A stretch of 33,102 nucleotides of DNA from Okeania sp. SIO1I7 (GTDB lineage Bacteria > Cyanobacteriota > Cyanobacteriia > Cyanobacteriales > Microcoleaceae), in contig JAAHGF010000005.1 in assembly GCA_010672585.1 (NCBI GenBank), positions 327,208-360,309 of the forward strand. Reading direction: 5' to 3'. Each line of letters begins with the position of its first letter. Position 1 is the first letter of the stretch. The position numbers were made by a program, and so were the translations under genes. The notes below the pieces were generated by a model. It saw only the letters and a list, made by a program, of their open reading frames with translations, was not told the DNA's origin and did no database searches. Shown here piece by piece: positions 4,795 through 32,764 of this stretch.

Positions 4795-5288
4795 ATTTTT
4801 TTTCCTAATCTTTTTATTTTGTCTTTACTTATTGCTATTTTCCATTCACTTTTTGTTTTTTCCTGTACCATTTTGAAATTCTTTGGAGACTTTTTGCTCC
4901 ATTCTCTGACTGTAAGCATTCAGCTATCAGCCATCAACTATCAGCTAAGGTTAAAAAATTAGCAAATTTGAGCAGTTATTAAATTTTATTCGTCAAAATC
5001 GGTCAGATAATAAATAAACCATAAGCACAAAAAGTTTCAGCGTCTAGGTTTGGTTAAAAGGGAATAACTCTATTAACTAACACAATATTATAGCTATTCG
5101 TCGTAATCCACTAATCATTCTTTTCGACTAAGTATATAGGCAGGAATAAACGTAACTATGTAACGAAATATTTATGCAGTCTAAACTTTTGAGATTACTT
5201 CTTTCCACTCTGTTCCAGTCTCTTCGGACGTAGTTGTAAATTTTCCCTCCTACATACTTATATTAATAACTATTAACTAATAACTGAA
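4795..5288. other. Gene-free spacer with a solo element end and a dispersed repeat
   Basis: No credible gene is seen. GTAAGCATTCAGCTATCAGC at 4912-4931 is identical to the left end of the small element at 27576 but no matching right end follows, so it is a solo or truncated end. At 5130-5155 an AAGTATAT...AATAAACGTAA block matches 14924-14949 in the spacer behind the cyclase. This block is of unknown nature. Confidence 0.55.
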
Positions 5289-14805: not shown

Positions 14806-15766
14806 ATTAACTATAAACAACAAACAATTTGAAACTTTTACTCCTTATCAATTTTGCTATTTTTCTACAACCACAAAATATATTAAACTATTTATCAAAA
14901 CTCTAGTGCAAAATTGCATAAGTAAGTATATGGGTAGAAATAAATGTAATATACAGCATCCGAACTAGGAACATTTGGGAGCAAATTGTGAGGAAAGCAA
15001 TTTTCATTAATTGATAATTACCTCTGGTTAAAACCGTTATGGAATTGAATATAAGGAAATATTATTTCTTCTCTTGGTCCATTGGATATGGTTAGGAAAC
15101 CCATCTATCCCACCCAACGGGTGCGCTGCAAAGAGAGAACTCCGTTCCGCTGTCGCGTTTCGCGTCAGCGTTGCGTTACGCCAGTTTTGCGAAGCAAAAG
15201 CAAACGACCGCTTTTTTCCCCTTAAAAGGAGAGACTTTAAACTAGAATTATTTAATTATTAATTATTAATTATTAATTATTCGGTAACTATGGGATTATT
15301 TTCTTGGTTTACTCTGTAAACAGACCTCGCTTCGGAAATTTTAGATTTAATTTCACTTACCTACTTCAATAATCAGTTAAAATCATGTTAAAAAGTTGAT
15401 TCTACAAGCTTTATTCCCTTCTGCTTCCTCCCTTATATATAAAAAATTAATAAATGTTTACTACAAATAGCTATGGTATTTCTTAGGAGTCTACCCACCC
15501 CTCGCCCCTAACCCCTCCCAGGAGGGGAAGTTAGAAGTCAGGAGTCAAAATAAATAGCTTCGATGCCATTTCTTAGTTCAGAACTTATCTTATTAGCCAA
15601 AGATAAATCTCCTATAAAGTCTTTTTATTGCCCTGATTATTCGTAACATTCTTTTTGAGAAATGGTATTATACCTTCTTGCACTAGCTACTGACAAAATT
15701 CATAAATGGATCAACTATAATAGTAATAAGTAATTACAACATTTACCCAAAAAAGGATTTCAGAAT
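14806..15766. other. Gene-free spacer behind the cyclase gene
   Basis: It contains a dispersed block at 14924-14949 (partner at 5130-5155), the TTACC element copy 2 with a GC-rich insert (15018-15287), and a GC-rich hairpin CCCCTCC/GGAGGGG at 15513-15528. TTTTTGAGAAATGGTATTA at 15653-15671 is shared with 7682-7700. A 62-codon frame at 15074-15262 lies wholly inside the element and is discarded. Confidence 0.5.
15018..15287 (+). repeat. TTACC...GGTAA element, copy 2 (270 bp) with GC-rich insert
   Basis: The ends TTACC (15018) and GGTAA (15283-15287) and the flanking 60-70 bp match copy 4 (18185-18308) in inverted orientation; shared blocks include GGAATTGAATATAAGGAAAT and AATTATTCGGTAA. Between about 15076 and 15215 lies extra DNA absent from the other copies. 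It is clearly GC-richer and holds nested hairpins: CGCTG/CAGCG around GCG/CGC (15148-15170) and TTTTGC/GCAAAA (15185-15199). It reads as one dispersed repeat inserted in another. Confidence 0.65.
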
Positions 15767-25264: not shown

Positions 25265-25310
25265 AAAACTATTGATTTGCTGACATCAAATGTTAAAAGT
25301 AATAGTAGTC

Positions 25311-25890
25311 TCTAGAAAAGAGGGAATAGGGAATAGGGAATAGGGAATAGGGAATAGGGAATAGGGGAAAATAATTGATAATTTCTGTGGGATAATTGAT
25401 TTTATTTTTGATTTTTACCAGATATCTAATAATAGGAGTCTCTAGAAAAGAGGGAATAGGGAATAGGGAATAGGGAATAGGGGAAAATAATTGATAATTT
25501 CTGTGGGATAATTGATTTTATTTTTGATTTTTACCAGATATCTAATAATAGGAGTCTTTAGAAAAGAGGGAATAGGGAATAGGGAATAGGGAATAGGGAA
25601 TAGGGAATAGGGGAAAATAATTGATAATTTCTGTGGGATAATTGATTTTATTTTTGATTTTTACCAGATATCTAATAATAGGAGTCTCTAGAAAAGAGGG
25701 AATAGGGAATAGGGAATAGGGAATAGAGAATAGGGAATAGGGGAAAATAATTGATAATTTCTGTGGGATAATTGATTTTATTTTTGATTTTTATCAGATA
25801 TCTAATAATAGGAGTTTCTAGAAAAGAGGGAATAGGGAATAGGGAATAGGGAATAGGGAATAGGGAATAGGGAATAGGGAATAGGGAACA
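25311..25890. repeat. Tandem array 3: five 116-130-bp units with GGGAATA heptamers
   Basis: The anchor T(C/T)TAGAAAAG recurs at 25311, 25441, 25557, 25687 and 25817 (spacings 130, 116, 130, 130). Each unit is a run of GGGAATA heptamers plus a nearly invariant 70-bp block (AAAATAATTGATAATTTCTG and onward). The 14-bp length difference equals two heptamers, so units vary by whole heptamers. The array lies between the divergent PEP synthase-like and ComF genes, so both promoters must lie in or beside it. Upstream of ComF the sequence from 25890 to 26052 holds no further gene. Confidence 0.9.
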
Positions 25891-26052
25891 GAGAAGAAAA
25901 AAAACATATCATGTGAATATAATAATTACTATATTCTATACTTTTAAGGAATATCTCAATTCTCACAACTGATTCCTGATTGCTATAGTAAATTGTTAAC
26001 AGATAAACATAAGAAACTATTTAATATTTTAGACTTTTTAAAGGTTTCCACA

Positions 26053-27322: not shown

Positions 27323-28207
27323 ATGCTCAGAAAAATAGATTGTAATATTTGGGTTGCCGAACAACCTTTAAGATTTTTGGGATTAGATGTTGGTACAAGA
27401 ATGACCGTAATTAGTTTAAAAAATGACGAACTAGCTGTGATTTCTCCAATTAAAATTGACCATAAAATTATTGAGCAATTTAAAGAAATTGGAAATGTCA
27501 AGCATATTATTGCTCCAAATCTTTTTCACCATCTTTTTTTATCTGACTTTAAAAATATTTATCCTCAAGCAAAAGGTAAGCATTCAGCTATCAGCAGTCA
27601 GCTATCAGCAATTAGTAATGAATAATTACTTTACTTATAAGGTTTTGTCCAGATACTTTGGCCGTAAATTTTTATTCTTTTTCCATTTCAAAGGTTGCTT
27701 TTACGTAGACTCAAAATTAATGGCTGATAGCTAATAGCTGACGGCTGAATGCTTACAGCAAAAGTTTATGCTGTTTCAGGTTTGAAGAAAAAAAGACCGG
27801 ATATTTCTATCGATAAAATATTAGATGATGATGAAAAATATTTTGGTAGTAAGCTCGAATATTTCTTATTTGAAGGACTGAATACTTTTCTTATGAATGG
27901 AGTATCGCCTTTACATGAGTATGTTTTTTTTCACGGCGAAAGTAAAACATTGATTGTGACAGATATTGTATTTAACTTTGATGAAAGCTTTCCATTCACA
28001 ACAAAGTTAGTATCTAAAATTCTGGGAGGATACAAACAACTTAGACCATCATTTTTAGAATGGTTGGGTACTAAAGAAAAAGAGAAAGTTAGACAATCAG
28101 TTCAGAAGATTTTGCAATGGGATTTTAGAAGGGTTATTATGGCTCATGGCACTATTGTAGAGGATGACGCAAAGCAGAAATTTAAGAAAGGATATGAGTG
28201 TTTTTGA
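27323..28207 (+). pseudogene. DUF4336 protein gene split by a MITE insertion
   Basis: Two adjacent fragments make one DUF4336 protein. The N-terminal part (MLRKIDCNIWVAEQPLRFLG to YPQAK, 27323-27575) carries RMTVISLKNDELAVISPI and VKHIIAPNLFHHLFL. The C-terminal part resumes at VYAVSGLKKKRPDISIDK (27765 onward) and includes YVFFHGESKTLIVTDIVFNFDESFP, KILGGYKQLRPS and RRVIMAHGTIVE, ending at 28207. Between them lies a 181-bp element plus an 8-bp target duplication. Removing these 189 bases rejoins YPQAK-VYAVSG in frame and gives 231 residues, a normal length. Reading through the insert gives a stop after GKHSAISSQLSAISNE, so the gene is broken unless excision occurs. DUF4336 is metallo-hydrolase-like in flavour, but its function is unknown. 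Codon quality on both sides is good, so the insertion is recent. Confidence 0.9.
27576..27756. mobile_element. MITE (181 bp) inserted in the DUF4336 gene; 8-bp target duplication
   Basis: The element starts GTAAGCATTCAGCTATCAGC and ends with the inverted form (GCTGACGGCTGAATGCTTAC). The terminal inverted repeats run about 34 bp with a few mismatches and are built of CAGCTAT-type heptamers. AGCAAAAG is duplicated directly on both sides (27568-27575 and 27757-27764). It has no coding capacity, so movement would need a transposase supplied in trans. Confidence 0.93.
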
Positions 28208-28306
28208 GATTTTTTTTTTGAAGTTAATAACAAAAATGAGTAATTTTTGAATATTTTTAAATTTTACTCCTCAATCTTTTTATATCAATTGAATCAAAGA
28301 ATGTTA

Positions 28307-28483
28307 GTAAGCATTCAGCCGTCAGCTATCAGCAATCGGCTATTGTTTTTAGTTTTAGGTAAAAGGTTTACTAATTGAATCATAATTTATACTTACTATA
28401 AAAGCTGGCTTTAAAGTTTGTTTATATTCATTAAAACCCCCTCATAAGAGCTGATAGCTAACAGCTAATAGCTGAATGCTTAC
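28307..28483. mobile_element. MITE (177 bp), same family, 8-bp target duplication
   Basis: It starts GTAAGCATTCAGCCGTCAGC and ends AGCTGAATGCTTAC. GAATGTTA is duplicated directly at 28299-28306 and 28484-28491. The terminal repeats match those of 27576-27756, but the interior differs from that copy and instead matches about 123-240, behind the transposase at the left edge. It lies in the spacer behind the DUF4336 gene. Confidence 0.92.
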
Positions 28484-28576
28484 GAATGTTACAAAACTAT
28501 TGGTTGAGAAAACAAGGATTTGCCACAAATAAATCAGTAACTAACAAACCATTTAGAGGGTCGCATCATTATTGTC

Positions 28577-29505: not shown

Positions 29506-32010
29506 ATGAGTAAAAAGCCTAGAAAATTAACAAAATTTTTGACAACCACTCTAGTAATAACAACGATAGTTAGCTTTGATTTTTTGCAAGATATATTCAA
29601 GCCAAAACCAGTTGATGCTGCCGAAAGAATAGTATTTAAAGTTCCAAAACTCACAGATTTATATATGTCTGTAGATTCTCTAGAAGTCTTTGCTAAAGAA
29701 GGAATAATTAGTAATGATTTTGCCTTTTATACTGCTTTTATGGAAGAAGAAGATTTGGTAAATTTGCGGAAAGTATTACAAGAACGTTTTGATATTCCCC
29801 CTGAATTAATTTCTCGCATTACAAATATGGCAATGGGAGAAGATTTCCTCAAATATTTGGGTCGTTTAGTACAAATTGACCCCGATATTAATGGTTATGA
29901 TGGGATAAGAACAGCTTTAATAGAAGCTGCATCAGACCCAGAGGAAGGATTTACTATTATCAATGTTATTAAAAAATTTCCCGCAGAAACAATCAGGATA
30001 AGTACAAATTTTTTATCTGAATTTTCTAATGAGTTAACTACTTTTAATGAGTATCGAGATACTTCAGTTACAGCAATTATTGAACAGACAGAAAAACAAG
30101 TTGCTACAGACCCAAAAATTGATTATTCTCAACTTGTAGATTTGAGTAAACCAGGTCCCTATAAAGTCATCAAAAAATCTATTAGTTTTGAAATAGATGA
30201 TTTACGCCAAACTGACACAGGTTTAGCAGGTTCTTATAATCTTGAAGCTGATATTTATTTACCCGCAGGAATTTCTCAACCAGTACCATTAGTAGTCTAT
30301 AGTCATGGTTTTGGAGCTGAGAAAAAAAGTATTCTTTTAGCAGAACATTTAGCATCTTATGGCATTGCATTAGCTGGTGTAGAACATTTAGGTAGTGACT
30401 TAGCATATCGCCAATCTTTTTTAAAAGGAGAAGTTGATATAGATATTAGTCCTATTGAATATATTAGCCGACCATTAGACCTGAGTTATTTATTAGATGA
30501 ACTGGAAAGGTTAGGTGAAACTGACTCTAATTGGAAATCAAAACTTGACCTAAATAAAGTAGGTGCATTAGGAAATTCTTTTGGTGCAACGACAGTCTTA
30601 TCTTTAGGAGGTGCTAATATTAATTTGCCCAGATTAAATCAAGAATGTGACCCGGAAAATTTGAGTTTAAATATATCAGTATTATTGCAATGTCGTGCCA
30701 ATTATTTACCTCCTTCAAACTATCAATTAAGAGACCCTCGTATCAAAGCAGTTTTCGCTTACTTTCCTCTAACAAGTGTAGTTTTCGGACCTGAAGAAAT
30801 GCAAAATATTTCTGTTCCTACTCTAATGATGGGAGGTAGTCACGATCTTCTCACTCCAGGAATAGAAGAAGATGTTCATCCTTTTATTTGGATGGATAAC
30901 TCAGATAAATATTTAGCTTTTTTGGTTCCGGGAACTCATTTTTCTACCAGCACTTTAATACCTGGTTTGCCTGAAATATTACAGGGACCGACACCGGAAG
31001 TCGGACAGTATTATCTCAAAAACTTGAGCGTAGCTTTCTTTAAAAAATATCTAGATAATCAATCAGAATATGAACCATATTTAACTGCTTCTTATGGCAA
31101 AGTTATGAATAAAGATTCCCTAAGTTTGAATTTAATTCAATCTTTAACAGCACAACAATTAGAAACTGCTTATAGTGGTTCTCTGCCAAAACCTATCGTA
31201 CCTCCAACTGTTACTGCTCAAGTTCCTAAAAGACAAGAAAGCATCTTAGAAGAAATTCAAAGAACTGGAGTAATGAAAGTAGCAATGAGAAGAGACGCTA
31301 CTCCTTTTGGTTATGTAGATAATACCGGAGAATGGGCTGGTTATTGTGAAGATATAATTGATGTTTTTGCTCAAAAAATTGCTCAAGAATTGAAAATTTC
31401 TACTGGAGTTAAAGTAATAAAAATTCCATCGAATCTAGAAAATCGTTTTCAGTTAGTTCAGAATGGTAATGTACATTTAGAATGCGGTCCAAATACTATT
31501 AGAGATGATGTGAGAAATGTGGCTTTTTCTAATCCTTTCTTTGTCACAGGAACGAATTTTCTAGTTGCTAAAGACACAGAAATAAATCCTAATAGCAATT
31601 TAGTAGGAGTTAAAACAGGTGTCTTGAAAAATACTATTACAGAAAAATTTATTAAAACAAAATATCCAGAAATTGAAGCCTTTTATTTTGAAGGTAATAC
31701 GGGGGTTAATCAAGCTGTAAAATCTTTAGCTAAAGGAGAAATTCAGGCTTTTGTTAATGATGGAATTTTATCTGTAGGGGAAGTAGTCAGGCAAAATTTA
31801 GATATTAATAATTACAAGTTAATTCCAGAAAAACCTTTAACCTGTGATTTTTATGGGATGATTATTCCCAATAATGACCCAGAATGGCAAAATCAACTTA
31901 ACTCTTTTATTGATGGTAATAAATCTCAATCCATTGATGAAAAATGGTTCAAAAATTTGTTTCCTTATCAGTTAGAGAATCTAGATTACTGCGTTAATCA
32001 GAAAAAGTAA
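29506..32010 (+). CDS. Secreted DUF1400-alpha/beta hydrolase fused to a solute-binding domain
   Basis: The 834-residue protein has a signal sequence (basic start, hydrophobic 11-25; likely cleavage after VDAA at 39). A DUF1400 helical domain follows (about 41-165). An alpha/beta hydrolase domain (about 215-530) has oxyanion segment YSHGFG (265-270), nucleophile elbow GNSFG with Ser358, acid Asp447 (GSHDLLTP) and His478 (GTHFS). A Pro-rich linker spans about 560-575. An SBP_bac_3-type periplasmic binding domain (about 576-830) reads ILEEIQRTGVMKVAMRRDATPFGYVD, then WAGYCEDIIDVFAQKIA. The catalytic triad is complete, so an esterase/lipase-like activity outside the cytoplasmic membrane is likely. 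The binding domain may hold a small ligand or target the enzyme. No transporter subunits are adjacent. The last 370 bases recur as tandem copies downstream. Confidence 0.88.
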   Translation: MSKKPRKLTKFLTTTLVITTIVSFDFLQDIFKPKPVDAAERIVFKVPKLTDLYMSVDSLEVFAKEGIISNDFAFYTAFMEEEDLVNLRKVLQERFDIPPELISRITNMAMGEDFLKYLGRLVQIDPDINGYDGIRTALIEAASDPEEGFTIINVIKKFPAETIRISTNFLSEFSNELTTFNEYRDTSVTAIIEQTEKQVATDPKIDYSQLVDLSKPGPYKVIKKSISFEIDDLRQTDTGLAGSYNLEADIYLPAGISQPVPLVVYSHGFGAEKKSILLAEHLASYGIALAGVEHLGSDLAYRQSFLKGEVDIDISPIEYISRPLDLSYLLDELERLGETDSNWKSKLDLNKVGALGNSFGATTVLSLGGANINLPRLNQECDPENLSLNISVLLQCRANYLPPSNYQLRDPRIKAVFAYFPLTSVVFGPEEMQNISVPTLMMGGSHDLLTPGIEEDVHPFIWMDNSDKYLAFLVPGTHFSTSTLIPGLPEILQGPTPEVGQYYLKNLSVAFFKKYLDNQSEYEPYLTASYGKVMNKDSLSLNLIQSLTAQQLETAYSGSLPKPIVPPTVTAQVPKRQESILEEIQRTGVMKVAMRRDATPFGYVDNTGEWAGYCEDIIDVFAQKIAQELKISTGVKVIKIPSNLENRFQLVQNGNVHLECGPNTIRDDVRNVAFSNPFFVTGTNFLVAKDTEINPNSNLVGVKTGVLKNTITEKFIKTKYPEIEAFYFEGNTGVNQAVKSLAKGEIQAFVNDGILSVGEVVRQNLDINNYKLIPEKPLTCDFYGMIIPNNDPEWQNQLNSFIDGNKSQSIDEKWFKNLFPYQLENLDYCVNQKK

Positions 32011-32383
32011 TACCAGAAAATTTATTCAAACAAAATATCCTGAAACTGAAACCATTTATTTTGAAGGTAATACAGGAGTGAATCAAGCTGTAAAATCTTT
32101 AGCTAAAGGAGAAATTCAGGCTTTTGCTAATGATGGAATTTTATCTGTAGGGGAAGTAGTCAGGCAAAATTTAGATATTAATAATTACAAGTTAATTCCA
32201 GAAAAACCTTTAACCTGTGATTTTTATGGGATGATTATTCCCAATAATGACCCAGAATGGCAAAATCAACTTAACTCTTTTATTGATGGTAATAAATCTC
32301 AATCCATTGATGAAAAATGGTTCAAAAATTTGTTTCCTTATCAGTTAGAGAATCTAGATTACTGCGTGAATCAGAAAAAGTAA
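32011..32383 (+). pseudogene. Tandem 3' copy B of the solute-binding domain
   Basis: From ACCAGAAAATTTATTC the copy is nearly identical to 31640-32010. In its own frame it reads TRKFIQTKYPETETIYFEGN through to NLDYCVNQKK and TAA (32381-32383). It starts one base after the previous stop and lacks any start codon or promoter; GTG at 32078 is an unlikely start. Against the intact gene it differs mainly in the first 25 codons and at FANDGI for FVNDGI. Confidence 0.88.
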
Positions 32384-32764
32384 TACCAGAAAATTTATTC
32401 AAACAAAATATCCTGAAACTGAAACCATTTATTTTGAAGGTAATACAGGAGTGAATCAAGCTGTAAAATCTTTAACTAAAGGAGAAATTCAAGCTTTTGT
32501 TAATGATGGAATTTTATCTGTAGGGGAAATAGTCAGGCAAAATTTAGATATTAAGATATTAATAATTACAAGTTAGTGCCTGAAAAACCTTTAACCTGTG
32601 ATTTTTATGGGATGATTATTCCCAATAATGACCCAGAATGGCAAAATCAACTTAACTCTTTTATTGATGGTGATAAATCTCAATCCATTGATGAAAAATG
32701 GTTCAAAAATTTGTTTCCTTATCAGTTAGAGAATCTAGATTACTGCGTGAATCAGAAAAAGTAA
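32384..32764 (+). pseudogene. Tandem 3' copy C, frameshifted
   Basis: Same unit as copy B but 8 bp longer: AGATATTA is duplicated at about 32546-32562. The frame breaks after NLDIK. It carries its own substitutions (SLTKG, GEIVRQ, DGDKS). Sequence after the break remains open in another frame to the same VNQKK end. Confidence 0.85.

Follow-up and report, generated by a model that had tools for sequence, protein, structure and literature searches.

How a gene for a DUF4336 protein came to be cut in two in the cyanobacterium Okeania sp. SIO1I7, and what the heptamer-rich sequence between its halves is, are the questions raised by a 33,102-nucleotide stretch of DNA (here the window; G000:C55:327208-360309) from a 9.48-Mb draft genome of 109 contigs. 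The intervening sequence is a miniature inverted-repeat transposable element (MITE) of 181 bp that has inserted into the gene, at window positions 27576–27756 (forward strand) between two exact 8-bp copies of AGCAAAAG (27568–27575 and 27757–27764, forward). Its outer 13 bp at both ends are perfect inverted copies reading GTAAGCATTCAGC (27576–27588, forward, and 27744–27756, reverse), its arms are 80% complementary across 46 bp, and its predicted RNA fold is a hairpin of nearly full length (−61 kcal/mol, z −7.93). Read from the sequence, the left end holds the 7-bp units CATTCAG, CTATCAG, CAGTCAG, CTATCAG and CAATTAG (27581–27615, forward; direct repeat D6), and the right end, from outside to inside, the units CATTCAG, CCGTCAG, CTATTAG, CTATCAG and CCATTAA (27717–27751, reverse). 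The two gene parts, delimited from frames, Pfam and the orthologue alignment, lie on the forward strand at 27323–27575, of which the final 8 bp form the left target duplication, and at 27757–28207, and each half separately matches Pfam DUF4336. The interrupted gene is closed after 100 codons by an in-frame stop within the element (27623–27625, forward), and an ATG in the right terminal repeat (27749–27751, forward), in frame with the 3′ part, is a candidate start for a 152-codon frame. Deletion in silico of the element and one copy of AGCAAAAG restores an open frame of 696 nt (231 amino acids plus stop). We call the family to which the element belongs F1. A second complete F1 copy, which was missing from the preliminary description of this insertion, begins 551 bp past the end of the first, downstream of the DUF4336 gene; it measures 177 bp (28307–28483, forward) and has its own exact 8-bp duplication, GAATGTTA (28299–28306 and 28484–28491, forward). 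Both window copies are small, and neither contains a transposase gene.

Close relatives of the gene in named genomes could be found in the Okeania metagenome-assembled genomes SIO2C9, SIO2B3 and SIO3B5. The rejoined frame aligned to these three orthologues without any gap at the insertion site, in agreement with the junction YPQAK/VYAVSG given in the preliminary description, which had also proposed a search for an uninterrupted orthologue with a single AGCAAAAG. SIO3B5 fits that search, reading TATCCTCAAGCAAAAGTTTATGC with one AGCAAAAG and no insert at the corresponding place, while in SIO2C9 and SIO2B3 the gene is uninterrupted and the site reads AGCACAAA. Since all three relatives are uninterrupted at the site, the simplest reading is that the insertion arose in the window's lineage and that the empty alleles are pre-insertion states. 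The SIO3B5 gene (L095, approximately 510–1458) is itself broken at other places by a pair of small inserts unrelated to this one, seen as gaps of 123 and 127 bp, so that the gene seems dispensable in two lineages. One of these inserts has ATGTCCGGT/ACCGGACAT ends and CTCCTGC heptamers, and the other stands after TTTAC and has TTCTAAA heptamers. Absence from a relative was likewise found for another F1 element of this genome (C88:134967-135406; SIO2C9), and the region of the second window copy differs from the relatives in complex ways.

The DUF4336 insertion is one of a large family. The end 13-mer has 390 exact matches genome-wide (190 + 200), against 0 + 0 for a reversed-pattern control. In a 1.81-Mb sample (contigs C18, C44 and C88), 29 of the 60 end pairs called had a flush exact 8-bp repeat, compared with a mean of 0.48 in shuffled flanks; flush exact repeats of 5–7 or 9–11 bp were seen at none of the 60 pairs, and those of 2–4 bp at seven. 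With up to one mismatch and elements shorter than 700 bp, 43 of the 60 pairs had the 8-bp duplication; in an earlier set that shared some of these pairs, 21 of 42 had it with up to one mismatch, versus 0.65 in shuffles. The 13-mer counts and the flush repeats, set against their controls, therefore exclude chance. Thus the preliminary description was right to see a MITE in the DUF4336 gene, which is borne out by the 13-bp ends, the family copies and the empty sites, and to take the 8-bp repeat as its target-site duplication. Another copy (G000:C48:23263-23443) is identical to the window copy over all 181 bp and is flanked by a different duplication, TTAAAAAG, which therefore indicates recent movement. 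Only 7 of the 43 empty sites fall in open frames of at least 150 codons, compared with 390 of 600 random positions, meaning that F1 insertions are mostly intergenic, through target choice or selection. Within 4 kb, 67 of 133 end motifs had no partner, and the element had no match in a plasmid collection. The preliminary description attached meaning to the in-frame length of element plus duplicate (189 = 3 × 63) and supposed that stop-free variants could persist as in-frame insertions. Among the 43 elements, however, length plus 8 leaves a remainder of 0, 1 or 2 on division by three in 14, 9 and 20 cases, as by chance, and only 3 of 84 frames in the 14 multiple-of-three members are stop-free. 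The window copy (27576–27756) has stops in all six frames, giving little support for such variants.

Which enzyme moved the element could be approached through its ends. Two relics in this genome match PF03050, and a query with the TnpC N-terminus gave seven partial matches, at C52, C18, C35 and C44; ends at or near these IS66 relics read GTAAGCATTCAGGTG or GTAAGCATTCAGGTATAG, with 12 bases common to F1. The sequence GTAAGCATTCAGGTG, with 12 of 12 bases in common with F1, recurs at several IS66 relic ends across Okeania genomes (L104, L125–L129), and one relic end at C44 has a change of the first base. An exact 8-bp duplication flanks 7 of 11 IS66 end pairs of 1.35–1.82 kb in related genomes (the failures being L109, L110, L113 and one wrong pairing in L099) and 8 further distinct IS66 copies (L258, L260, L261, L265, L266, L268, L271 and L275), while other pairings in L259, L268, L270 and L279/L284 fail the duplication test. 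The L258 and L261 copies have more divergent ends, and those of L265, L266 and L268 carry GTAAGCATTCAG at each end and belong to two F1-rich genomes, G211 and G140, with 246 and 602 end 13-mers, respectively. A TnpC N-terminal stretch lies beside an F1-like end in G003, with DUF6444 above and zf-IS66 below the cut-off.

Besides the directly observed ends, duplication, empty allele, copy number and identical copies at two sites, the agreement of ends and duplication length with IS66 is also observed, and the element is therefore filed as an IS66-type MITE, with the acting transposase as a candidate. We consider it likely, with good confidence, that F1 is a non-autonomous, type I MITE of this kind. 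An IS66-family transposase, most likely one with a single open reading frame, would recognise GTAAGCATTCAG at both ends and join the element to a staggered cut, the fill-in of which would yield the 8-bp duplication; the insertion ended the DUF4336 frame and probably the function of the gene. Inside the 12-bp end, F1 has CAGCNNT heptamers where IS66 has its subterminal sequence, so that the arrays travel with the element. ISDge4, an insertion sequence (IS) of the ISBst12 group of IS66, was seen to transpose, and has the ends GTGACTACTCAGCA/GTAACTGCTCAGCA and an 8-bp duplication (PMC12898284). The F1 ends also start with GTAA and hold TCAGC, as in GTAACTGCTCAGCA, with the same duplication length, but F1 differs in having no gene, in its heptamers after base 12, and in hundreds of ends compared with a few IS66 relics.

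Several observations weigh against an IS66 origin. No intact IS66 transposase could be found in this draft genome, only relics, though the copies look recent, and no intact IS66 with exactly the F1 ends could be found in any genome examined. In the G140 and G211 copies, whose ends are identical, the coding sequence is broken into several frames or contains stops, and the TnpC frame of G003 (C191) stops after 237 residues, 102 bp before the contig end. IS66 copies of G001, from the same genus, have GTAAGGATTCAGG, one base off, and the similarity between F1 and IS66 ends after 12 bases. Numbers of the two are uncoupled, since G004 combines 658 end 13-mers with a single IS66 match below threshold, and G017 has 13 IS66 matches and no 13-mer. 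Furthermore, even when one mismatch is allowed, no duplication flanks 17 of the 60 F1 pairs. The lack of an intact partner, the uncoupled numbers and the match of only 12 bases would suit a MITE mobilized by a different transposase, whose likeness to IS66 in 12 bases and duplication length would be convergence. We regard this as improbable, although it deserves consideration, as all 12 bases and the 8-bp duplication recur together in IS66 copies of F1-rich genomes (L265, L266 and L268), and the same 12 bases recur in Okeania relics. A draft assembly of 109 contigs can lose a multi-copy IS, so the absence of an intact partner from this genome is weak evidence.

Candidates for an autonomous copy were sought between F1 ends more than 1 kb apart. 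Four such pairs lie in C18, C44 and C88, one of them at C44:409293-412137; none of the other three could be accepted. C44:88185-89219 is a broken IS66, and C18:114884-118321 begins with a truncated IS66 left end, whose 43-residue frame matches no Pfam family but agrees with the G003 TnpC N-terminus at 86%, followed by unrelated frames. C18:128755-130121 encloses one 84-codon frame and resolved into two separate elements on a finer scan. The frame beside an IS66-like end at C35 proved to be acetate kinase, and in G003 and G004 the long open frames that weakly matched PF03050 (L237 and L240) lacked such ends or had only a two-mismatch site ahead of the frame. In C35, an IS66 derivative shortened by internal deletion and bearing a GTAAGCATTCAGGTATAG end (L249, 2526 to approximately 2785) retains the start of tnpC and adjoins the acetate kinase gene.

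Returning to the IS66-type MITE, its movement is probably copy-and-paste. The preliminary description had instead emphasized exact repair of the gene on excision, and an insertion of that kind could act as a reversible switch. Any target duplication permits precise excision of an element with one duplicate on paper, and here the join is in frame, but no excised form was seen, there being no reads to search, the SIO2C9 and SIO2B3 alleles, reading AGCACAAA, are not excision products of the window allele, the empty alleles being more simply ancestral, and the authors who studied ISDge4 call its movement copy-and-paste (PMC12898284). Repair on excision is thus unsupported, and a switch is very improbable. 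Passive expansion of a heptamer repeat or hairpin in place, which might be imagined where period-7 repeats are as common as described below, is more improbable still, as it accounts for neither the 8-bp duplication nor the perfect ends nor the near-identical dispersed copies, and is already refuted by the empty orthologue sites.

F1 ends occur in two forms, A (GTAAGCATT-CAGC) and B (GTAAGCATT-TCCTNCGGAATGCTGCGCAAA-CAGC), and both ends of the DUF4336 copy are type A. Among 45 elements (the 43 with duplications and the two window copies), 28 are A/A, 16 A/B and one B/B. Indels between nearest relatives peak at 21 nt (19 cases, versus one of 20 nt and none of 22 nt), and 18 of these 19 are the TCCTNCGGAATGCTGCGCAAA hairpin or a variant, the pairs compared not being independent. 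In the 1.81-Mb sample the 21-mer TCCTNCGGAATGCTGCGCAAA occurs 106 times, 51 times at F1 termini and 55 times elsewhere. Small dispersed repeats (SDR) of Nostoc are said to have been described by Elhai in 2008 as dispersed hairpin units of 21–27 nt, often within heptamers or minitransposons. The 21-nt insert presumably resembles SDR in size, hairpin and heptamer setting; Okeania is not known as a relative of Nostoc. A second hairpin insert (CCTCCT..GGAGGAACTGCG) has nine matches in the sample, mostly inside CAGC-type heptamers.

The heptamers in the F1 ends bear on short tandemly repeated repetitive sequences (STRRs), whose heptamers are usually thought to be passive repeats. Counting arrays of at least four tandem units at 80% identity or more in the 1.81 Mb gave 800 arrays of period 7, against 35, 24, 80 and 4 for periods 5, 6, 8 and 9, and 807 with the filter used for classing. 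CAGCTAT arrays lie at strict A ends in 27 of 43 cases and at A or B ends in 37 of 43 by a looser test, which allows two mismatches and also catches shifted heptamers; for the AGCCATC class, 10 of 10 lie at F1 ends by both tests. The large AATTATT (154 arrays), CCTTCTT (113) and GATAATT (62) classes have 0, 0 and 0 at F1 ends by the strict test and 4, 0 and 0 by the looser one, and over all classes 51 of 807 arrays lie at strict A ends and 75 by the looser test. Hence CAGCTAT-type arrays are mostly at F1 ends and the other large heptamer classes are not. The heptamer-built ends belong to the mobile unit, as the preliminary description held for CAGCTAT-type heptamers; that part of its claim stands for the class, and an extension to STRRs at large would not. 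The end heptamers of the two window copies are imperfect, with about 5 of 7 bases kept from unit to unit, and fall below the array threshold, which is reached at 4920–4947 by a lone F1 end.

Other heptamer classes might nevertheless be tied to mobile sequences of their own. Against the three relatives, 31 distinct clean presence/absence differences were found, with the window F1 insert counted as array-free; 17 carry arrays of several classes, one of these reflecting a 41-bp difference in the number of units and not an element, and some gaps are not flush. The clean insertions hold 21 arrays in 7,466 bp at the 31 sites, compared with 23 in the 24,738 bp of non-coding backbone aligned, counting both species, an excess of about threefold, and none in 80,166 bp of coding sequence. 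Some arrays are common to the species, so not every array lies on a recent insertion. The sequence beside arrays is repeated in a class-specific manner; for AATTATC arrays, for example, the median offset of the AATTATT-type end is −165 bp. Three AATTATC/AATTATT-type inserts differ between species by presence or absence; two of them directly follow TTAC and the third adjoins GTAA. A 282-bp insert of the window (15002–15283), absent from SIO2B3, ends in (AATTATT)n followed by GTAA. We take this placement to resemble IS200/IS605 targeting, and the 282-bp insert to resemble a TTAC-targeting MITE of IS200/IS605-like kind with heptamer ends.

On account of the array-bearing insertion differences and the class-specific sequence beside arrays, we tentatively suggest, at somewhat less than even likelihood, that heptameric STRRs of filamentous cyanobacteria generally are parts, often ends, of several unrelated non-autonomous mobile families. 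A heptamer-making process would act on the elements, transposition would spread its product, and 21-nt hairpins would nest in the elements. The families covered by this joint suggestion would be an IS66-like one with CAGCTAT, a TTAC-targeting one with AATTATT/AATTATC ends, and others with GGGTTTGCTGA, GGGTGCATCTCA and ATGTCCGGT ends and CTCCTGT-, TTCCCTG- and CTCCTGC-type units. Weighing against such generality, a count with hand-picked end motifs, which are incomplete and include none for the AATTATT family, placed only 74 of the 807 arrays within a paired element of any kind, and F1 accounted for more than half of these (40 in the classes listed).

The family is widespread. Its 13-mer occurs in 25 out of 61 genomes belonging to the taxonomic family and in 47 out of a sample of 195 from the order, and the genera in which it is numerous are scattered. 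Of 30 loci fetched, 19 contained an F1-like element with an 8-bp duplication (up to one mismatch), L291 and L304 being the same element; these F1-like loci represent genera g1, g5, g11, g48 and g54, which fall into three families. In Anabaena sp. 90, MITEs of 77–541 bp lie in intergenic regions in 132 of 147 cases and in disrupted frames in the other 15 (PMC3542288). They resemble F1 in being short and mostly intergenic, but they are called type II, having no inverted repeats like those of an IS there, and the passages devoted to them make no mention of heptamer-built ends (PMC3542288). Cyanobacterial heptameric repeats such as TAACTGA are similarly tandem, mostly intergenic and lineage-specific in their description, which leaves open how such repeats spread in cyanobacterial genomes (PMC4679880), whereas in Okeania one kind of heptamer belongs to a mobile unit with defined limits. 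Among titles and the beginnings of abstracts, none on IS66-derived or heptamer-ended MITEs in cyanobacteria could be found.

The lasting interest of the locus is in linking heptamer repeats to mobile elements, as one heptamer class is tied to a unit with defined ends, a defined duplication length and a likely transposase family, and CAGCTAT-type heptamers can spread by hopping. Synteny between Okeania species offers a direct presence/absence test for the other heptamer classes. The results further suggest that strain typing by heptamer fingerprints may follow the movement of elements, and adjacent gene calls such as the DUF4336 pair can be a single MITE-split gene.

Elsewhere in the window, F1 has left two relics. 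The lone end mentioned above is of type A with CAGCTAT heptamers and occupies 4912–4947 on the forward strand, and a type B end is represented by its outer 22 bases at 252–273 on the reverse strand, with the 21-nt insert extending to 244. Tandem units of 116–130 bp, each with (GGGAATA)n heptamers, fill 25301–25899, where the SIO2B3 counterpart has a different sequence that includes a GGGTGCATCTCA element. At approximately 32010–32609, after a solute-binding gene, there is an apparent repeat of part of the 3′ end of that gene.
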